Notes under the pieces: generated by a model
Seen by the model: only the letters and a program-made list of their open reading frames with translations
What the model was told of the DNA's origin: nothing
Database searches by the model: none
Made by a program: the position numbers and the translations under genes
Shown: piece after piece, positions 2,526 to 12,078 of the stretch
How the letters are laid out: every line of letters starts with the position of its first letter
Position numbering within the stretch: the stretch's first letter is position 1
Assembly: GCF_030811655.1 (NCBI RefSeq)
Contig: NZ_JAUSRE010000011.1
Location: forward strand, 1-64,000
DNA length: 64,000 nucleotides
Direction of reading: 5' to 3'
Source: Pseudarthrobacter enclensis
GTDB taxonomy: Bacteria; Actinomycetota; Actinomycetes; Actinomycetales; Micrococcaceae

Positions 2526-4106
2526 CATCACGGACTGCCAGCCGGAGGCGCCGTCTGGCACGGGATCCGCGCGCTTGTCCGTCTGGACTTCGCCGGTGCC
2601 GTCAGTGGCGCGCACTTTGATGTAGTGCGGGCCGGGCGTGGCGTCCCATTCGTAGGACCACTGGCGCCACGTGACCGTGGAGGCTTCGGTGGAAAGGGTG
2701 GTTTCCACCCAGTCGCCGTTGTCGATCTGGATCTCCACTTTGGCGATTCCCCGGGTCTGCGCCCAGGCGGTGCCGCCCACCGCCACTTTCCCTGCCGGAA
2801 CTTTGGCAAAGGACTTGGGCACCTCCACGCGCGCCATGGTCTTGATCGGACCGCGCTCGGACCAGCCGCGGTTGGTCCAGTACGCCTTGTTGTCGGCGAA
2901 GCGGGTGACCTCCAGGTCCACCACCCACTTGGTGGCAGAGACGAACCCGTAAAGCCCTGGGACCACCATCCGCACCGGGTAGCCGTGCTCCAGCGGAAGC
3001 GGCTCACCGTTCATGCCGATGGCCAGCATGGCGTCGCGGCCGTCCTGCAGGACCTCGAGGGGAGTGGAGGCGCTGAACCCGTCGATGGATGTGGAAAGCA
3101 CCATGTCCGCACCGTCTTTAGGCCTGGCGCGGGCCAGCACTTCGCGGATGGGCAGGCCCAGCCACTTGGCGTTTCCTGCCAGGTTGCCGCCCACCGGGTT
3201 GGACACGCAGGTAAGCGTCACGTGTGATTCGATCAGTTGGGCGTCCAGCAGGTCCTTGAACCTGAGGGTTACCTCCTGCTCCACCAGTCCGTGGACCCGC
3301 AGCTCCCAATCGTCAACGTTGATTTCGGGCACGCTCAGGGCCGTGTCGATCCGGTAGAAATCGTTATTGGGCGTCAGCCACGGCGTAACCCCCGGCACAG
3401 GGGACTGGACGCCTGCCGGCACCGCGGCTGCGGCCTTGGCCGGCGCCGGCAGCGAGAGCGCTTCGCGCGCCTTGGCGACGTTGTTTCGGGCGGCCCCGAG
3501 CAGCCGGCCGCCCGTTGCGGCGACGCCGGCGGCCACGGCAGTAATCCCGGCGGCAGTGAAGAAACCGCGGCGGCTGGTGCCGGCGCCCTGCCGCCGCGCG
3601 TCGTCGTCGGCTGCCTGGTCAGCCGGCGCTTCCGGCCAGGGCTTGGGCTCTTTCAACCGCCACACGGACGCCATAAGCACGCGCAGGACCACCAACCCGG
3701 CGATGGTCCCCAGCACGGACGGGATCGCGTCCACTGCGCTGACACCGGCGCGGGTTACCACGCAGGCAACGATCACGGCCCCCATGAATAGGACCCCCAG
3801 AACGCCCAGCGCCCACTTCCGATAGGCAACCACGCCAAGGACGCAGGCAAGTATCGCAATGGTCAGCCCCATCCCCACGAACAGCGCAGCCTTGTCGTTA
3901 GTGCCGAATGTAGCGACCGCAAAGTCCTTCAGCTTGGGCGGCGTGAAGTCGATGAACGTTGATCCCAGGGCGAAAAGCGGGGTTGCCCTGGCGGTGAAGA
4001 ACGCGCCGATCAGCTCCGCAACGGCAAGCACGACGGCGGCCGCCACCACGCCTGCCAGCGCGGCCATGGCGGTGGGGCCGGTAATCCTGTTCCGAAGCTT
4101 TGTCAT
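2511..4106 (-). CDS. Membrane-anchored molybdopterin-dependent oxidoreductase (sulfite oxidase family)
   Basis: A 531-residue protein of the sulfite oxidase/YedY-like family. Residues 1-150 hold four predicted membrane helices (about 13-36, 74-94, 98-119 and 128-148). A twin-arginine-like TSRRGFF at 177-183 precedes a fifth hydrophobic stretch, so the catalytic part should be exported and tethered. The molybdopterin domain includes LTCVSNPVGG, whose Cys300 is the expected molybdenum ligand, and HGYPVRMVVPGLYG. A C-terminal Mo-co dimerisation domain follows. The substrate is unknown; homologues act on sulfite or oxidised sulfur compounds. It is divergent from purD. Its last codons and stop are tandemly duplicated. 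Confidence 0.85.
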   Translation of the reverse strand: MTKLRNRITGPTAMAALAGVVAAAVVLAVAELIGAFFTARATPLFALGSTFIDFTPPKLKDFAVATFGTNDKAALFVGMGLTIAILACVLGVVAYRKWALGVLGVLFMGAVIVACVVTRAGVSAVDAIPSVLGTIAGLVVLRVLMASVWRLKEPKPWPEAPADQAADDDARRQGAGTSRRGFFTAAGITAVAAGVAATGGRLLGAARNNVAKAREALSLPAPAKAAAAVPAGVQSPVPGVTPWLTPNNDFYRIDTALSVPEINVDDWELRVHGLVEQEVTLRFKDLLDAQLIESHVTLTCVSNPVGGNLAGNAKWLGLPIREVLARARPKDGADMVLSTSIDGFSASTPLEVLQDGRDAMLAIGMNGEPLPLEHGYPVRMVVPGLYGFVSATKWVVDLEVTRFADNKAYWTNRGWSERGPIKTMARVEVPKSFAKVPAGKVAVGGTAWAQTRGIAKVEIQIDNGDWVETTLSTEASTVTWRQWSYEWDATPGPHYIKVRATDGTGEVQTDKRADPVPDGASGWQSVMVTVQ

Positions 4107-4204
4107 GTATATGGTTCGGAGCGGGAGGCGACCCGGATTGACCGGCGGGCAGGGAAGGACACAGCTTAGGAGCGGGAAGGGTGCACAAAGTACCCTTGGA
4201 GACT

Positions 4205-5521
4205 GTGAAGGTACTCGTCATTGGCCCCGGAGGCCGCGAACACGCCATTGTCCGCTCCCTGCTTGCCGACCCGAACGTGTCCGAGGTCCACGCGGCGCCG
4301 GGCAATGCCGGCATCAGTAAACTGGTCCCCACTTACAACATCAACGGCAACGATCCTGAGGCTGTAGCGGAGCTGGCAACACGGCTCGGCGTTGACCTTG
4401 TGGTGGTGGGCCCCGAGGCTCCGCTGGCAGCAGGCGTGTCAGATGCTGTCCGTGAAGCCGGAATTCCCGTCTTCGGTCCCAGCAAGGCCGCCGCCCAGCT
4501 GGAGGCCTCGAAAGCGTTCGCGAAAGAGGTCATGGCGGAGGCCGGCGTTCCCACAGCGATGGCCATGGTGGCCACCAACGCAGAGGAAGCAGCGTCGGCC
4601 CTGGATACATTCGGCGCGCCCTACGTGGTGAAGGACGATGGCCTGGCCGCCGGCAAGGGCGTGGTGGTCACCAAGAACCGCGACGAAGCCCTGGCCCACG
4701 CCCAGTCCTGTTTCGACGCCGGCGGATCCGTGGTCATCGAGGAGTTCCTGGACGGACCGGAAGTTTCCCTGTTTGTCCTGTGCGACGGCCAAAACACTGT
4801 GGCACTCTCGCCTGCCCAGGATTTCAAGCGCATCTTCGACAACGATGAAGGGCCCAACACCGGTGGCATGGGCGCCTACACCCCGCTTGAGTGGGCCCCC
4901 GAAGGCCTGGTGCAGGAAGTCCTTGACCGGGTGGCCCAACCCACCGTCAACGAGATGGCACGCCGCGGAACCCCCTTTGTCGGCGTGCTGTTCGTCGGGC
5001 TGGCGCTGACCTCTCGCGGCACCCGCGTCATCGAATTCAACGTCCGCTTCGGCGACCCCGAAACGCAGGCCGTTTTGGCCCGGCTCAAGACCCCCCTCGG
5101 TGCCCTGCTGATGGCTGCTGCCAAGGGCGAACTGGATAAGGCAGAAGAGCTGCGTTGGGCCAAGGAGTCCGCCGTCGCCGTCGTTGTGGCCGCGGAGAAC
5201 TACCCGGGCACGCCCCGCACCGGTGACCGGATCCGCGGGCTCAAGAAGGTGGAAGCCCTCGACGGCGTGCACGTCATCCACGCCGGGACCGCCCTGGACG
5301 GGAACGGCAAAGTGGTTTCCGCCGGCGGCCGCGTCCTGGCCGTTGTTGCCTTGGGCAGCGACCTGGTGGAGGCGCGCGAAAAGGCGTACGACGGCGTTGA
5401 GCTGGTCCAGCTGGAAGGCTCGCAATTCCGCAGCGACATCGCCCGCAAGGCCGCACGTGGCGAAATCAAGGTTCCGTATGGCGCCACCGGCTCACTGCCC
5501 ATCGTGAAAGCAAAGGCCTGA
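4205..5521 (+). CDS. purD: Phosphoribosylamine-glycine ligase
   Basis: GAR synthetase, the second step of de novo purine synthesis, joining phosphoribosylamine and glycine with ATP in the cytoplasm. It opens with the diagnostic MKVLVIGPGGREHAI. It has the ATP-grasp region (APYVVKDDGLAAGKGVVV, EEFLDGPEVSLFVLCDG), DEGPNTGGMGAYTP, and the metal-binding IEFNVRFGDPETQAVL. Starting at the GTG at 4205 gives 438 residues and the conserved N-terminus. A GTG at 4181 with AGGAG 8 bases upstream would add 8 residues and cannot be excluded. purC follows after one base, so the two are cotranscribed. Confidence 0.95.
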   Translation: MKVLVIGPGGREHAIVRSLLADPNVSEVHAAPGNAGISKLVPTYNINGNDPEAVAELATRLGVDLVVVGPEAPLAAGVSDAVREAGIPVFGPSKAAAQLEASKAFAKEVMAEAGVPTAMAMVATNAEEAASALDTFGAPYVVKDDGLAAGKGVVVTKNRDEALAHAQSCFDAGGSVVIEEFLDGPEVSLFVLCDGQNTVALSPAQDFKRIFDNDEGPNTGGMGAYTPLEWAPEGLVQEVLDRVAQPTVNEMARRGTPFVGVLFVGLALTSRGTRVIEFNVRFGDPETQAVLARLKTPLGALLMAAAKGELDKAEELRWAKESAVAVVVAAENYPGTPRTGDRIRGLKKVEALDGVHVIHAGTALDGNGKVVSAGGRVLAVVALGSDLVEAREKAYDGVELVQLEGSQFRSDIARKAARGEIKVPYGATGSLPIVKAKA

Positions 5522-5522
5522 C

Positions 5523-6461
5523 ATGAGTGAAACTTCCCAGAACCGCGGCTACGCCACCCAAACCCTTGACCTGGCCGGTTGGACGCACGTCTACTCCGGC
5601 AAGGTCCGCGACCTTTACGAGCCCGCTGACGCGTCAATCGTGCAGCGCCTGGGGCAGGACTGCGTCCTGGTGGTGGCCAGTGACCGTATCAGTGCCTACG
5701 ACCACGTCCTGTCCAGCGAGATCCCGGACAAAGGACGCATCCTTACCCAGTTGAGCCTCTGGTGGTTCGACCAGCTGGGCGTGGAACACCACGTGCTCGG
5801 TTCCACGGCGGAGGACGGCGTGCCTGCCGAGGTTGTGGGCCGGGCCATGATCTGCAAGAAGCTGGACATGTTCCCGGTGGAGTGCATCGCCCGCGGCTAC
5901 CTGACGGGATCCGGGCTGCAGGAATACAAAGCTTCCGGCACCGTCTGCAACATCCCGCTGCCCGAAGGCCTGGTGGACGGTTCACGGCTGGAGCACGCCA
6001 TCTTCACGCCGTCCGCCAAGGCGCTGATCGGCGAGCATGACGAGAACATCACCTACGACGCCGTCGTGGCGTTGGTGGGTGACGACATCGCGGCCCGCCT
6101 GAGCGAGCTGACGTTGAAGATCTACACGACGGCGGAGAAGATCGCCCGGGAGCGCGGCATCATCCTTGCGGACACCAAAGTGGAATTCGGCTACGACGCC
6201 GTCTCCGGGTCCATCACGCTGGGGGACGAGGTGCTGACCCCTGATTCCTCGCGTTTCTGGGATGCTGCCACCTACAAGCCGGGGCAGGCCCAGCCGTCCT
6301 ATGACAAGCAGTACGTGCGGGACTGGCTGACCTCGCCGGAGTCCGGTTGGGACAAGTCCTCTGACGCCCCGCCGCCGGCACTGCCCGCAGAAGTAGTGGA
6401 GCGCACGCGGAGCCGGTATGTCGAAGCGTACGAAAAGATCACGGGAAAGACGTTTTCGTAA
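5523..6461 (+). CDS. purC: Phosphoribosylaminoimidazole-succinocarboxamide synthase
   Basis: SAICAR synthetase joins CAIR and aspartate with ATP in purine synthesis. The 312-residue product shows SGKVRDLYEP near the N-terminus, VVASDRISAYDHVLSSEIPDKG, ARGYLTGSG and LADTKVEFGYD, all family hallmarks. The length is typical of the longer actinobacterial and yeast-like form. Its ATG follows the purD stop by one base, so translation is likely coupled. A strong two-way terminator begins 10 bp after its stop. Confidence 0.95.
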   Translation: MSETSQNRGYATQTLDLAGWTHVYSGKVRDLYEPADASIVQRLGQDCVLVVASDRISAYDHVLSSEIPDKGRILTQLSLWWFDQLGVEHHVLGSTAEDGVPAEVVGRAMICKKLDMFPVECIARGYLTGSGLQEYKASGTVCNIPLPEGLVDGSRLEHAIFTPSAKALIGEHDENITYDAVVALVGDDIAARLSELTLKIYTTAEKIARERGIILADTKVEFGYDAVSGSITLGDEVLTPDSSRFWDAATYKPGQAQPSYDKQYVRDWLTSPESGWDKSSDAPPPALPAEVVERTRSRYVEAYEKITGKTFS

Positions 6462-6470
6462 CCACGCTTC

Positions 6471-6515
6471 AAAAAGCCAGGTAAGCCCCCCATCTGCGGG
6501 CTTACCTGGCTTTTT
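6471..6515. terminator. Bidirectional rho-independent terminator
   Basis: An 18-bp perfect inverted repeat (AAAAAGCCAGGTAAGCCC at 6471-6488 and its complement at 6498-6515) has a 9-base loop and an A-run/T-run at its ends. It separates purC from the convergent regulator gene and can stop transcription from both sides. Confidence 0.92.
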
Positions 6516-6517
6516 GG

Positions 6518-7783
6518 TCAGCTGGCCTTGGCAGCAGCCGCGGCCCGCTTCTGCGCCAGCTTGATCTCAAGGATCGCGTCGAGCGCCTGCTGGACCCGGT
6601 CCTGTGCGCCGGCGGTGGCGAAGGCCTTTTGGGCTTCTTCGAGGTGCACCAGTGCTTCATCCGTGTCGCCTGTGGCCTTGAGTGACTTGCCCAGCAGGAG
6701 CGAGACCTCACCCGCCGTGTGCTTGCCCAGCGCGTCACGCTCTGTGTGGATCTCCCGCAACTTTTCGACGGCTGCGACAATATCCCCGGTCAAATACAGC
6801 CAGCGGGCGCGGATGAAGGCCACTTCCAGTTCGTCGCTCTTGGTTCCGCCAACGATGGAGAAGGCCAGTTCTGCCCGTTCGATGGCTGCCAGCGTTTCCG
6901 GCTCGACGATGCCCGATGAAAGCCGGACAGCGGCCGACGCCTTGTTGAAGCGCGCCCACAACTCAATGTCATTGGCAGGGGAGAGCAGGCGGGCTGCCCG
7001 CTCGTGATGCGTGACGCCCTCCGTGTAGTCGTGCCGCATGAAAGCCACGTTGCCGATGACCCAAGCGACTTCGCCGGCGAGCTGGGACATGGAATGCTCG
7101 TCCACCTGATCGAGCAGGGCCTGGCAGTACTTCCACGCCTCATCCAGCCGTCCGCTTTCAGCCAGGGCGCCGATCAGGATGCGGTGTGCGCCGATGAGGA
7201 CGGTTGAACCCCGGGGGAGGCCGGCGGACAGCCTGACGGCTTCCAGCGCATGCTCAACAGCAACAGACAGCTGGCCCTGGCCGTGGCAAACTGCGGCAAG
7301 CATTTGGCGGGCGCGGACGCCAAGACCAACAGACTCTGTTGCCATGGGGTGCTCAATGAGGCGTTCAATGATCTTCCGGCATTCCTGAAGGTCACCCTGT
7401 TTCATGAGGCACTCGGCCTGCATGTAGGTCATGTTCCACCAGGCGCTGGTGTTCTTGCCGTCCAGCGCAATTTGTGCCGCGTTTGCAGCGTGGCTGGCAG
7501 CCAGCGGGTAGTCACGCAGGTCCCACGCCTGACGGGCGTAGAGCCCGGCCAGGACGTATTCGGCGTCGCTAACTGAAATTGGCTGGCTCCAAGCCTCCAG
7601 TGCCTTGGGTGCCAACTCCAGCCTGCGTGCGAGTTCTTCAATAACTTCAGCCGTCGGTTCGCGGCGGCCGGTCTCTAGAAGCGAAATGTAGCTGGGTGAA
7701 TACAGGTCCTTGCCCAGTTCGGCCTGTGTCAGTCCACGCTCAAGGCGCTCCGCCCGGAGCTTTTCTCCGAATCCGTTGCCCAC
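6518..7783 (-). CDS. XRE-family regulator with TPR sensor domain (RRNPP-like)
   Basis: A 421-residue protein with an N-terminal helix-turn-helix at about residues 6-60 (EKLRAERLERGLTQAELG, SYISLLETGRREPT). The rest is all-helical and reads as tandem TPR repeats, for example NMTYMQAECLMKQGDLQECR and GKSLKATGDTDEALVHLEEA. HTH plus TPR is the layout of RRNPP receptors (PlcR, NprR, Rgg), which bind small imported signal peptides. The GTG at 7781-7783 is chosen for the strong AGGAGG 6 bases upstream; the longer frame runs through the intergenic promoter. A gene for a secreted repeat-bearing peptide lies divergently 128 bp away. Peptide sensing is inference; a TPR regulator of another signal is the alternative. 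Confidence 0.85.
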   Translation of the reverse strand: MGNGFGEKLRAERLERGLTQAELGKDLYSPSYISLLETGRREPTAEVIEELARRLELAPKALEAWSQPISVSDAEYVLAGLYARQAWDLRDYPLAASHAANAAQIALDGKNTSAWWNMTYMQAECLMKQGDLQECRKIIERLIEHPMATESVGLGVRARQMLAAVCHGQGQLSVAVEHALEAVRLSAGLPRGSTVLIGAHRILIGALAESGRLDEAWKYCQALLDQVDEHSMSQLAGEVAWVIGNVAFMRHDYTEGVTHHERAARLLSPANDIELWARFNKASAAVRLSSGIVEPETLAAIERAELAFSIVGGTKSDELEVAFIRARWLYLTGDIVAAVEKLREIHTERDALGKHTAGEVSLLLGKSLKATGDTDEALVHLEEAQKAFATAGAQDRVQQALDAILEIKLAQKRAAAAAKAS

Positions 7784-7820
7784 GCGTTTCCTCCTTCTGG
7801 ACACTGGGGCCGCCGAATGC

Positions 7821-7860
7821 TTGACAGGCCCTGTGGAAAATATTTTACAATGTGTGTCAA
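7821..7860. promoter_or_regulatory. Shared promoter/operator between TPR regulator and peptide gene
   Basis: TTGACA at 7821-7826 and its mirror TGTCAA at 7855-7860 bracket a 16-bp near-perfect palindrome, TGGAAAATATTTTACA (7834-7849), whose core AAAATATTTT is perfect. The rightward TTGACA has TACAAT at 7846-7851 (19-bp spacer) as a candidate -10. The leftward TTGACA could serve the regulator gene. A regulator bound to the palindrome would cover both promoters. The promoter assignment is by eye. Confidence 0.6.
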
Positions 7861-7911
7861 CAAGGACAGTGCTGGCTTTGTAACGAATCCGACTCGTATT
7901 GAGGAACTTAT

Positions 7912-8139
7912 ATGTTGAAGAAGATCGCAACCGCGGCCGCCCTGGCTGGGGCCCTGGCTTTTTCTGCGGCAGCTCCGGCTGTCCTGGCTTCAGGTTCCGT
8001 CGCCGATAATTCGGGTACGTCGGTAGCTATTGGCAACTGGCCTGACCCCGCTTCCGCGAAGGTCAAGAAGGACAAGAAGACCACTACCACCGACACAACC
8101 ATCATCACCTACATCGGCAACTGGCCCGATCCTGCATAA
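7912..8139 (+). CDS. Secreted small peptide precursor with duplicated IGNWPDPA motif
   Basis: A 75-residue precursor. Residues 1-26 form a classical Sec signal peptide (MLKKIATAAALAGALAF, ending PAVLA before Ser-Gly). The remaining roughly 49 residues carry IGNWPDPA twice, at 40-47 and at 68-75, the second ending exactly at the C-terminus. The copies are joined by a Lys- and Thr-rich linker (KVKKDKKTTTTDTT). Five of the eight codons differ between the copies, all synonymously, which suggests selection on the peptide rather than a recent DNA duplication. GAGGA lies 6 bases before the ATG. It is divergent from a TPR regulator, so I infer a signalling pro-peptide; an antimicrobial or structural role is not excluded. 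Confidence 0.82.
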   Translation: MLKKIATAAALAGALAFSAAAPAVLASGSVADNSGTSVAIGNWPDPASAKVKKDKKTTTTDTTIITYIGNWPDPA

Positions 8140-8170
8140 ACAGCTTCCTCACATCGGGAGGCGAGGGTAG

Positions 8171-8198
8171 GCCCCGGAGCAACAGCTCCGGGGCTTTT
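8171..8198 (+). terminator. Rho-independent terminator of the peptide gene
   Basis: GCCCCGGAGC (8171-8180), a 4-base AACA loop and the exact complement (8185-8194) are followed by TTTTCCCTTT. It begins 31 bp after the peptide stop codon, so the peptide gene is probably a monocistronic unit. Confidence 0.92.
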
Positions 8199-8235
8199 CC
8201 CTTTAAGGCCACAGGAAGACGCCTCACTGGGGGAC

Positions 8236-8271
8236 GAAAAAGAGGGCCTCCCCAAGGAGACCCTCTTTTTC
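8236..8271. terminator. Bidirectional terminator next to tRNA-Pro
   Basis: Sixteen-base arms GAAAAAGAGGGCCTCC and GGAGACCCTCTTTTTC pair with a single mismatch around a CCAA loop. The A-run and T-run make it usable in both directions. It lies 5 bp beyond the CCA end of the leftward tRNA-Pro and probably ends that transcript. Confidence 0.85.
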
Positions 8272-8276
8272 CATTA

Positions 8277-8353
<77 letters not shown>

Positions 8354-8446
8354 ATCCGCTGCAAAAGCAACTTTACAAGGATAGCCGATTCCGGGTCCCG
8401 ATGCGAAATCGTCGTCCAGAGAACCGGCACGCCGCCGGCCGCTGGT

Positions 8447-10273
8447 TCACACCAGCGAATCCTTCCATGCACCGTGCAGGTCCGCGAACCGTCCGCCGCC
8501 GCCGATCAACTCTTCCGGGGTGCCATCCTCCACGATCTGGCCGTCATGCACTACGAGGACGCGGTCCGCCGTTTCCACCGTTGAGAGGCGGTGGGCAATG
8601 ATCAGCGCTGTCCGCCGTGCAGCTTCCGTTCCCGCCAGCAGCCGGGCCAGGCCGGCCTGCACCAGTCGTTCCGAGGGGATATCCAGGGAGGATGTGGCCT
8701 CGTCCAGGATCAGGACCGCCGGTCGCGCCAGGAAAGCCCTGGCGAAGCTGATCAGCTGCCGCTGACCGGAGGAAACCCTGCCGCCACGCTTGTTGACGTC
8801 GGTGTCGTAGCCCTCCGGAAGTTCCAGGATAAAATCGTGCGCCCCCACCGCCTTGGCGGCCTCCTCAATCTCCGCGCGGGAGGCGTCCGGGCGGCCCAGG
8901 GCGATGTTGTCCGCCACAGAACCGCTGAAGAGGAACGCCTCCTGCGTGACCATGACGATGTTCCGGCGGAGGTCGCTGGTGGCGAGATCGCGGAGGTCAA
9001 CGCCGTCCAGGGTGAGCGTGCCGGAAGTCACGTCATAGAACCGGGCGATCAGTTTGGCCAGCGTTGATTTGCCGGCGCCGGTCTGCCCCACCAGCGCCAC
9101 GGTCTGGCCGGCCGGGATGTGCAGGTTCAGGCGGGGCACCACCAGGGGTCCGTCGCCGTAGCGGAATTCCACGCCGTTGAAGTCGATGCGGCCCGTGGCG
9201 GTGGGCAGGGCGACAGGGTTCTTCGGCGGCCGGACGGTGGGTACTTCTTCCAGGAGGCCCGAGACCTTTTCCAGGGCTGCCTGCGCGCTTTGGAAGGAGT
9301 TGTAGAACATGGCCATCTGGTCCACGGGCTGGAAGAACCGCTTGGTGGAAAGGATGAGGGCGAGAAGGACGCCGATGGCAAGGTCACCGCCCAGCACCCG
9401 AAAGCCGCCGAAGAGCAGCACCAGGGCAACGCAGACGTTGCCGATCAGCACCAGGCCGGGCTGGAAGATCCCGTTGAGGTTGATGGAGCGGACCGTGACC
9501 AGCCGGTAGTCCTCGGCGAGCTTCCCGTACCGCTCCGAGTTTTCCTTCTCCTTCCGGAAGGCCTTGACCGCGCGGATGCCGGTCATGGTCTCCACGAAGT
9601 GCACGATCAGCCGGGCAGAGACCACCCGGGACTCGCGGAAGGCGATCTGTGAGCGCTTCTGGTACCAGCGGGAGAGGAAGAACATGGGGACGCCCGCCGC
9701 CAGGACCAGCAGGCCGCTCCGCCAGTCCAGGGCAAAAATAGTGACGGCTGTGAAGGCCATGAACAGGATTCCCGAGGCGAGCGAGCTCACCCCGGAATCG
9801 AGGAGTTCGCGGAGCGCCTCCAGGTCAGAGGTTTGCCGCGCGATGATGCGGCCTGAAGTGTACTTTTCGTGGAACTCCAGGCTGAGCCGCTGCGTGTGCC
9901 GGAAGACGCGCACCCGCAGGTCCAGCAGCATCGCCTGGCTGAGACGGGCGGTGGAAGTGACGTACAGGGCGGTGAGTCCCGCCGTCGCGATGGCTGCCAG
10001 AAGGTAGGCGGCACCTGTGAGCACCAGCGGGAAGTTGTCCCCCGACCGGAGGGCCGGCAAGGCGTGGTCGATGCCGAACGCAATCAGGGCGGGCCCGGCT
10101 ACCCTTGTGGCCTGGGAGAGGACCACCATGGCGATGGTCAGCCAGAACCGTACCCGCACCGGGCGGATCAGCGAGCCCAGCAGGGCAAGCGACCGCCGTC
10201 GTACTGCCCTGCTGTCACTCCTGCTGAGGTGGGCGTTGTCTTCGTTGGCGGTGCCAAACGTCGCGGTGCTCAT
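8447..10273 (-). CDS. ABC exporter half-transporter, catalytic-site subunit
   Basis: A 608-residue fused membrane/ATPase subunit of a type IV ABC exporter. Six membrane helices occupy about residues 40-330. The nucleotide domain has Walker A GQTGAGKS, Walker [14 protein letters not shown] with the catalytic Glu, and the H-loop IIAHRLST. Its signature is VSSGQRQL instead of LSGGQ. With its neighbour, which has the reverse defect, it should form a heterodimer with one consensus and one degenerate ATP site, as in TM287/288 or BmrCD. Its ATG overlaps the upstream gene's stop by four bases, so the two are translationally coupled. The substrate is unknown; drugs, lipids or peptides are possible. 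Confidence 0.9.
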
Positions 10274-12078
10274 CGGGTCACTTCCTCAGCATGGTCCTCA
10301 AGCGCCGACAGTTCGGAGTCCAGGTCCCGGGGCTCCCGCTCCAGGCTGGCGATGACGTAGCGGTAGTGCTGGTTGTGCGCCAGCAGCTCCGTGTGCGTTC
10401 CGACGGCGGTGATGCGGCCGTCCTCCAGTAGTGCCACGCGATCGGCAAGGGCCACCGTGGACGGCCGGTGCGCGACGATCAGCGTGGTGGTGTCCTTCAG
10501 GACCTCGCGGAGGCGGGCTTCCACCAGCTCCTCGGTGTGGGCGTCCAGGGCGGACAGGGGATCGTCCAGGACCAGGACGCGTGGGCGGGCAGCGATGGCA
10601 CGGGCCAGGGCAATGCGCTGCCGCTGGCCGCCGGACAGGCTCAGGCCTTCCTCGCCTATCAGCGTGTCCACGCCCTCCGGGAGGGAGTACGCGAAGTGCG
10701 CCTGCGCCACATCGAGGGCCTCGTCCAGGACCTCCTCCGTTGGGGCCGGAGCACCCAGCAGGACGTTGTCCCGCACGGAATTGGAGAAGAGCGTGGTGTC
10801 TTCGAACGCTACGGCCACGATGCTGCGCAGCTCCTCGACGTCGAAGTCCCGGATGTCCACACCGTCAATGGTGATGGCGCCCGTGGTGACGTCATACAGG
10901 CGCGGCACCAGCTGGATCAGCGCACTCTTTCCGCTGCCGGTGATGCCCACCAAGGCCATGGTTTCGCCGGGAAGGATGTCCAGGCTGATGTCCTTGAGGA
11001 TGGGCTTGTCGGGCGCGTCCTCGAAGGCGAACGTTGCTTTGTCGAAGCGGAGTGCGCCTGAGAGTTGTGCGGGCCGGCGGGGTTCGGCGGGGCTGGTGAT
11101 GGTGTTCAGGGTATCCATCACTTCGTAATGGCGGTCGACGGCGGTCTTCGCCGTAAGTGCCATGGCCAGCAGCATGCCGGAGAATTCCACGGGGGAGGCA
11201 ATGACTGCCGCGGTGGCGAAGAACGCCACCAAGGCACCGATGCTCAGTTGCCCGCCGGCGCAGAGCATGACGCCCACCACCAGCGCCGTCCCCAGCGCAA
11301 GCTCGGGAAGCAGGGTGACCACCATGGTGAACGTTGCCTGGTGGCGCGCCTTGGCGATCTCAATCTGGCGCAGCTCCTCGGCCTGCTCATTGAAGTTCTC
11401 CAGGGCCTCCCGGCTGCGTCCAAAAGCCTTCAGCACGCGGATGCCGTGGACGGATTCCTCCACGGTGGTGGCAAGGTCGCCGGCCTGGTCCTGGCTGCGC
11501 CGGGCAACCTTGCTGAAGCGGGTGCGGAACCGGAAGCTGTTGATGGTTATGGGAACGGCGGCAGCGAGGAAGATCAGCGCCAGCTGCCAGCTCATGGCGA
11601 ACATGGCCACGATCCCAATGATCACGGTAAGCGTGGTGACCACCAGCATGATGGCGCCGAAGGCCATCCATCGGCGCAGGAAGTTCAAATCTGTCATGGC
11701 CCGGGACAGCAACTGGCCGGACCCCCACCGGTCGTGGAAGGAGACAGTCAGTTCCTGCAGATGGCCGTAAAGGGAGACGCGCATGCGGGTCTCCACGGTG
11801 GTTGCGGGGTTAATGACGAATTGCCGGCGCAGAGCCACCAGTCCTGCCTCTGCGATGCCCAGCACCAGGACGACGCCTGTGGATGTCCAGAGAGCCTGGG
11901 GTGAGCCGCCCGGCTGGAGCGCCGTGTTGACCAGGATGCGCAGCACCTGGGGGATAGTGAGGGCCACAACGCTTGCCAGGAGTGCGCACAGAAGCCCCAT
12001 CAGGAGCCTGGGGATGATGGGCCGGACGTGCGGATAAAGACGGCTGATGGATTGAAAGAATCGAGTCTGCTTGGCCAT
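10270..12078 (-). CDS. ABC exporter half-transporter, degenerate-site subunit
   Basis: A 602-residue partner of the next gene, with six membrane helices (residues about 20-315) and an ATPase domain. It has Walker A GITGSGKS, a perfect signature LSGGQRQR and H-loop IVAHRPST. Walker B is [12 protein letters not shown]: Asp stands where the catalytic Glu should be, so this ATP site should hydrolyse poorly. The two subunits complement each other as in known heterodimeric exporters. Overlap of four bases (ATGA) with the downstream gene indicates fixed stoichiometry. It is the first gene of the pair; its promoter should lie in 12079-12210, where I see no clear hexamers. Confidence 0.9.

Follow-up and report, generated by a model that had tools for sequence, protein, structure and literature searches.

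Does a divergent gene pair of Pseudarthrobacter enclensis encode a linear peptide pheromone and its cytosolic receptor? The question is raised by the window analysed here, the whole stretch of 64,000 nucleotides at positions 1 to 64,000 of contig NZ_JAUSRE010000011.1 (assembly GCF_030811655.1). In this window, a gene for a regulator with a helix-turn-helix (HTH) and tetratricopeptide repeats (TPRs) and a gene for a small precursor protein are divergent, with 128 bp between them. The initial annotation had described a regulator of 421 residues and a precursor of 75 residues that carries IGNWPDPA twice, once at its C-terminus, and we found each of these elements exactly where it had placed them (Table 1). 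It had also read the two as a receptor and a signal of the RRNPP type. This reading is supported by the linkage of the genes within the genus, by covariation of the peptide with the receptor and by a profile match to PlcR, and we consider it very probable that this actinobacterium has here an RRNPP-type peptide signalling module resembling PlcR/PapR.

We searched 59 genomes for the regulator and found it at full length in all 37 genomes of the same genus, with 80-100% identity. At 36 of these 37 loci, a divergent open reading frame (ORF) with a signal-peptide-like start carries the motif (35 with GNWPDP and one with GIWPDPM twice). Under one and the same rule, a divergent small ORF with a Sec-like start was present at 50 of 55 orthologues vs. 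2 of 154 control genes, which were at least 300 aa long and came from twenty 20-kb stretches of related genomes; the five orthologues missed by this rule still have a motif ORF. A scan of GTDB genomes with the family profile returned 298 relatives. The best 80 of these, referred to below as the named loci, come from Arthrobacter, Pseudarthrobacter, Paenarthrobacter and one unplaced Micrococcaceae genome and overlap with the 37 genus genomes. A divergent ORF that begins like a signal peptide and has the motif xGxWP[DN]Px was found at all of these best 80 loci, and a single internal copy was the only one in just three of them (L169, L174, L187). Of 197 family genomes, 32 were matched by the precursor profile, and in every one of the 32 a match adjoins a receptor. 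Conservation of the motif beside unrelated genes, which the initial annotation had named as an argument against a receptor and its signal, is thus nearly absent. Two further profile matches have no known receptor beside them: in genome G002 an ORF with IGNWPDPM four times, and in G163 a GWWPN precursor like those of the paralogues described below. The G002 ORF (L322:9524-9994, the same place as L320, minus strand) has Arg-flanked copies and no evident Sec leader; the linked precursor of this genome (L012) has the same signal, and the unlinked ORF is a possible second emitter.

Which part of the precursor is preserved? We reduced 142 precursors, all with the motif and with a start like M[FLI]KK[IL], to 124 with distinct DNA; L041 and L174, for example, fell outside this set. 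The motif forms the exact C-terminus in 116 of the 124, and it is present once in 4 precursors, twice in 66, three times in 24, four times in 28 and five times in 2. Between the first and last copies of the same precursor, there were 328 synonymous and 10 non-synonymous codon differences, set against a possible ratio of 4.23 non-synonymous per synonymous change. The search pattern fixes positions 2, 4, 5, 7 and mostly 6, which leaves positions 1, 3 and 8 as the only free tests; the fair figure, for these three positions, is 92 synonymous and 10 non-synonymous differences. The copies share the same residue at position 1 in 118 of 120 precursors and at position 8 in 112 of 120; after shuffling, the numbers were 57 and 80. 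Between species, the 66 precursors with two copies have a non-synonymous to synonymous ratio (N/S) of 0.45 for the motif, 0.66 for the leader and 2.80 for the spacer. Copies also change jointly, as SGNWPNPM twice in L222 and GIWPDPM twice in L022. In the window, the two copies of IGNWPDPA show five synonymous codon differences and no amino-acid difference, and so do not represent a fresh duplication of DNA. Judged by these sequence comparisons, selection acts on the octapeptide as a unit.

The peptide and the receptor also change together. We compared 120 receptor-peptide pairs, the window included, from species that are not independent of one another, and the p values for co-change given below weigh all branches equally. 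Isoleucine at peptide position 1 is accompanied by Leu132 of the receptor in 73 of 73 rows, and valine at this position by Trp132 in 31 rows and by Tyr132 in the other 2 of its 33. The covariation with the TPR groove that the initial annotation had proposed to look for is therefore present, and it is densest in residues 111-215. Threonine at position 1 occurs with Leu132 in 13 of 13 rows, with Gln167 in 11 and with Thr or Val164 in 10. Position 1 changes on 8 branches of the receptor tree, and these hold 5/5 changes of residue 132, 5/7 of residue 167 and 5/8 of residue 127. When only columns with at least three changes were counted, p<1e-3 was reached for position 1 by 5/48 columns in residues 111-215, 0/21 in 1-110 and 0/86 in 216-421; for position 8, the corresponding figures were 1/48, 0/21 and 0/86. 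Position 8 indicates residues 184-202 with weaker support: Met8 is found with Ala or Val202 in 94 of 94 rows and Ala8 with Ile202 in 12 of 15. The exchange of size at both ends (Ile1 with Leu132 vs. Val1 with Trp132; Met8 with Ala or Val202 vs. Ala8 with Ile202) would fit contact between peptide and receptor. An independent tree of purC and purD, from the 76 of 81 loci with both genes long enough, brings the same stretch into focus; on this tree, residue 132 co-changes with position 1 in 7/7 cases, and 16/43 columns in 111-215 reach p<1e-3 for position 1. In the receptor model, which has a mean predicted local distance difference test (pLDDT) score of 80.8 and blocks of 72-95 over residues 71-420, the proposed specificity stretch consists of helices 112-129, 132-144, 152-168, 172-186 and 194-209. 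The covarying residues are on or next to helices 112-129, 152-168 and 194-209, which may line the inner groove.

These results bear on the foremost alternative, that the precursor is an exported effector, such as an antimicrobial or envelope peptide, which the regulator merely controls while its TPR domain responds to another cue. Effector roles are possible for small exported repeat proteins in general, and many relatives of the regulator have no precursor, as such an explanation would allow. However, covariation of peptide residues 1 and 8 with particular TPR residues is not expected for an effector that the receptor does not touch, and selection falls on the eight residues and not on the spacer. 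We consider an effector of this kind very unlikely.

In the RRNPP-type module, the precursor would leave the cell via Sec. A home-made rule that looks for a basic N-terminus, a hydrophobic stretch and an A-x-A-like site predicts this export, and the leader itself is conserved. A second alternative keeps the whole circuit inside the producing cell: the receptor would bind the precursor or its fragments there, as private feedback or self-sensing, and nothing would pass through the medium. In favour of such a circuit, the motif ORFs of some family members (L131, L320) show no evident leader; the Sec-like leader, however, is conserved (N/S 0.66) and can be recognised by eye in the precursors of the genus, and we regard the intracellular circuit as likewise very unlikely. 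That the signal is a modified peptide, similar to the ribosomally synthesised and post-translationally modified peptides (RiPPs), rather than a plain octapeptide is hardly credible. In its favour is the sole NCBIfam match of the precursor, a weak one of the leader region to a RiPP precursor model (E 0.11, 13.1 bits; cut-off 95); against it, no modification-enzyme gene was seen among the ORFs of 3000-12000, which were named by eye with no search. The precursor has no Pfam or PHROGs family.

Under the signalling interpretation, proteases would release IGNWPDPA from two sites in the exported precursor, and the octapeptide would accumulate outside until an importer of the Opp/Dpp type took it up again; five SBP_bac_5 binding proteins, which are of this type, are encoded in the genome. 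Inside the cell, the octapeptide would bind across the repeats of the TPR superhelix, at about residues 112-209, with its residue 1 probably near 127/132/164-167 and its residue 8 probably near 196/202. We are less sure of these contacts between residues and peptide ends than of the importance of the stretch. Binding would then alter the action of the HTH on DNA, in whichever direction, at least at the element between the two genes and possibly at targets beyond the pair.

That element had been described in the initial annotation as a palindrome with facing TTGACA boxes, and it was recovered as TTGACA-N28-TGTCAA. Its spacing is ungapped across 21 aligned loci (21 of the 25 chosen loci were in the set), with receptor identity down to 68%. 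It occurs as a single copy per genome in 13 genomes of the genus, always adjoining the receptor, and among 6 other genomes one has one copy, at unrelated sequence. The conservation of the inverted repeat fits autoregulation of the pair. The exact repeat has one site per genus genome, and so no further target of a regulon could be named from it. A consensus scan found no sigma-70 promoter on the TTGACA boxes, and the presence of two promoters here is unproven.

Table 1. Positions of the regulator, the precursor and associated elements in the window.
Feature	Position	Strand	Details
HTH-TPR regulator, proposed cytosolic pheromone receptor	6518..7783	-	421 aa, GTG start
XRE-type HTH, regulator residues 5-64	7592..7771	-	HTH_31 E 1.3e-11, HTH_3 E 5.5e-11 (Pfam)
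TPR-domain residues 127-202, proposed to set peptide specificity	7178..7405	-	Columns co-changing with peptide positions 1 and 8
Inverted repeat TTGACA-N28-TGTCAA between the two genes, putative operator/promoter element	7821..7860	.	Conserved spacing
Precursor, 75 aa, Sec-like N-terminus (about residues 1-26)	7912..8139	+	ORF and homologues
IGNWPDPA copy 1, precursor residues 40-47, proposed mature pheromone unit	8029..8052	+	
IGNWPDPA copy 2, precursor residues 68-75, exact C-terminus	8113..8136	+	
Terminator-like hairpin 3' of the precursor gene	8169..8196	+	12-bp stem, strong

Is the regulator related to known peptide receptors? A profile of 30 family members matches PlcR (2qfc) in the PDB with E 2.3e-8, in one alignment that covers the HTH and the TPRs (residues 4-210); both are common domains, which limits the weight of the match as a sign of common descent, and four designed repeat proteins outscore PlcR in this search through repeat likeness. 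Fold comparison returned generic TPR superhelices, among them Rap with pheromone (4gyo; Z 22.7, 322 residues, root-mean-square deviation 5.0) and 8rst (Z 22.5). PlcR is absent among the fold matches listed, which excludes nothing. Excerpts of a survey give five RRNPP(A) criteria: a propeptide of 10-100 aa that is exported by Sec, and a receptor of 250-500 aa that has TPRs and is the direct gene neighbour of the propeptide (PMC10075063). Four of the five are found here (75 aa; 421 aa; TPRs; neighbours 128 bp apart), and Sec export follows from the home-made rule only. Like PlcR-PapR, the pair combines a receptor of XRE HTH and TPRs with a small, here predicted, exported precursor as its direct neighbour. 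The signal of PapR lies at the C-terminus, as does one copy in the window precursor. The pair differs from PlcR-PapR in its actinobacterial host, in a receptor of 421 aa vs. the 293-residue chain of 2qfc, in a signal repeated in 1-5 copies, in its divergent genes and in another peptide code (xGNWPDPx). The likeness to Rap-Phr lies in the Rap structures among the fold matches; repeated pheromones that are more conserved than the intervening sequence are described for Phr3T/Phr105 of Bacillus phages in the part of that report available (PMC11343458). Unlike Rap, the receptor in the window has a DNA-binding HTH, and it therefore lacks the defining feature of the Rap type, the absence of a DNA-binding domain. 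Gamma-butyrolactone signalling is also cell-density signalling in the same phylum, according to excerpts of a review (PMC4748050). The window system, unlike it, uses a gene-encoded peptide. Gamma-butyrolactone signalling has a synthase and an unrelated receptor, in which it again differs from the system described here.

Several observations weigh against the interpretation as a signalling module. First, the covariation has exceptions. Phe8 occurs with Ile202 (2/2), which contradicts the size rule, and the receptor tree gives 2/2 co-changes for residue 275, which is outside the stretch (p 0.00099). With the purC+purD tree, the top column for position 1 is residue 195 (8/9) and that for position 8 is residue 164 (7/13), so that the two contact sites are less clearly separated, and p<1e-3 for position 1 is also reached by 7/69 columns in 216-421. 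The spread on this tree points to exchange of receptor-peptide segments by recombination as part of the signal, and we read the pattern as real covariation plus such exchange. The HTH half of the receptor model has a pLDDT below 50. Second, the regulator sequence alone matches PlcR only via the HTH (E 0.084), and in the fold comparison many unrelated TPR proteins, eukaryotic LGN/Pins domains among them, outrank Rap, so that the fold alone says little. Third, the linkage is incomplete. The remaining genus locus, L041, has a degenerate SGNWPYPV and has lost the canonical motif. Under a strict rule, no more than 22 of the 57 HTH-type receptors from outside the genus have a divergent precursor, and on a tree of 94 hand-picked receptors, with L123 and L131 counted as precursor-positive on weak grounds and the HTH end of L097 broken, we could find no precursor next to 34 of the 66 HTH-type receptors. 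The expectation of the initial annotation that an exported motif ORF would always sit beside the regulator thus held within the genus (36/37 genomes; 80/80 named loci) and failed in the wider family, and the homologues without an adjacent peptide that it had regarded as evidence against a receptor-signal pair do partly exist.

How are these orphan receptors distributed? A match at E 1e-3 was present in 169 of 295 family genomes, 25 of them weak (E 1e-3 to 1e-5). The presence of the precursor requires nine changes on the 94-receptor tree. Fourteen HTH-TPR receptors without a precursor form one well-supported clade nested among receptors that have one (L098, L100, L101, L104, L110, L112, L114, L115, L117-L120, L124 and L134). 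Outside the genus, such orphans are common; the signal may have been lost, the receptor may read the peptide of another gene, or the precursor may have gone unrecognised. A wider search over motif, length and strand recovered precursors overlooked at first in L094 and L138; beside the orphan receptors, other motifs, lengths and strands yielded no more than L123 and L131, two short candidates that lack a leader. These are very short upstream ORFs that end in VGDWPD or GIGDWPHAA, possibly decayed or leaderless precursors. Across the family, precursor signals are variants on a WP core (GIWPNS, VGNWPDAVAP five times, PGNWPD, TGNWPN, VWIWPDS, VGDWPH repeats, VGEWPH).

More distant relatives may carry similar arrangements. 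At the class level, 32 of 394 genomes match at E <=1e-15, 4 of them in the family of the window; with at most four candidates scored per genome, this tally is a lower bound. By the home-made rule, a divergent Sec-like ORF is present at 16 of 25 distant loci (the fragment L255 was left out), one of which, L237, looks spurious. Some of these ORFs have WP-like ends (GGSWP three times, DIEWP, DIGWP, DISWP, GWGWPG), and others end in or near CC (NWPKCC, GGIWCC, HPPTCC, AEPCC). The small ORFs ending in CC, which are predicted to be exported, lie upstream and divergent in L236, L246, L247, L249 and L250 and downstream and convergent in L242 and L253. In a genus of large genomes coded g77, presumably Streptomyces, only 5 of 27 loci pass the Sec-like-ORF rule, one of them dubious (L285, L286 and L293 were left out of the 27), and an ORF with the motif [DEGN]I[DEG]WP is present at 11 of 30 loci. 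Beside HTH-TPR genes in L282, L287, L294 and L295 of this genus, short ORFs, mostly without a clear leader, end in or near D-I-D-WP, D-I-G-WPKR or E-I-E-WP. That these distant pairs are the same kind of system is suggestive only.

A second branch of the family lacks the HTH. A further match to the regulator, with 38-48% identity, exists in 17 of the 37 genus genomes, and its alignment starts only at the TPR part; Pfam found no HTH in L043, the one such paralogue examined, and the regulator search found no HTH-less paralogue in the genome of the window. The 28 HTH-less receptors form one clade and require a single change on the 94-receptor tree. A Sec-like ORF with a WP motif (IGWWPN, PGWWPD, KIGDWPN, VGNWPD, often repeated) faces 27 of the 28, and the remaining one is cut by a contig end. 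A GGDEF-EAL gene lies within the flanks of about 3 kb at all 17 HTH-less loci of the genus (L042-L058), together with a gene for a GAF-histidine kinase at 8 of the 17, and within the fetched stretch of 5 of 8 HTH-less loci of other genera (L129, L133, L135, L144, L145). No GGDEF-EAL gene was found at the 37 HTH orthologue loci, whose flanks span only 1.5 kb. In layout, these paralogues are Rap-like, but they adjoin GGDEF-EAL genes, and we claim no sequence kinship to Rap. The natural, though unproven, reading of this arrangement is a Rap-like receptor that would act on a cyclic di-GMP enzyme, and the HTH-less loci may hold a peptide switch of cyclic di-GMP. Tandem HTH-less receptors with their own precursors occur in L135 (IDDWPH; VGNWPG twice) and L137 (IDNWPN; VGNWPD four times), possibly as parallel channels.

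Within the window, AAGGAGG precedes the GTG start of the regulator gene (by eye), and the regulator has TPR_12, TPR_14, TPR_2 and TPR_6 matches above the Pfam cut-off. The ORFs of 3000-12000, as named by eye, include purC, purD, an oxidoreductase-like ORF and two ATP-binding cassette transporters. A phage or plasmid origin was considered and rejected, with the regulator unmatched in the plasmid collection (E 1e-15) and in the phage collection (E 1e-5).

How far does this pair depart from what has been described? According to excerpts of a 2022 survey, 13,513 complete bacterial genomes were searched and RRNPP(A) matches were found in Firmicutes genera (PMC9765709). A 2023 survey, in the part available, covers Firmicutes only and describes actinobacterial signals as typically enzyme-made small molecules (PMC10075063); an older review, likewise in part, lists cyclic or modified peptide signals in actinobacteria as well (PMC4748050). 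The words 'Actinobacteri', 'Actinomycet' and 'Streptomyces' are absent from the main text, as far as available, of PMC12700828 (2025) and PMC9765709 (2022). The titles and abstract beginnings listed by searches of the open-licence literature contained no actinobacterial RRNPP-type peptide system, which does not prove its absence, and this literature held no relevant description of the NWPDPA motif. The statement of the initial annotation that no actinobacterial example with this motif is known to be described agrees with these searches, within the limit that such literature cannot prove absence.

If the signalling interpretation is true, quorum sensing by linear peptides and cytosolic receptors reaches a second phylum, in common soil bacteria related to Arthrobacter. 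It would come with a readable receptor-peptide code, in which residue 132 is set against peptide residue 1 and residue 202 against residue 8. We would give an even chance to a broader scenario, a widespread actinobacterial peptide language of PlcR-like receptors with WP-core (xGNWPDPx, GWWPN, GDWPH, GGSWP, D-I-x-WP) or double-cysteine signals, in which a single loss of the HTH turned the receptor towards the neighbouring GGDEF-EAL protein and let a quorum peptide set cyclic di-GMP directly. The HTH-less branch would in that case tie the peptide signal to cyclic di-GMP.

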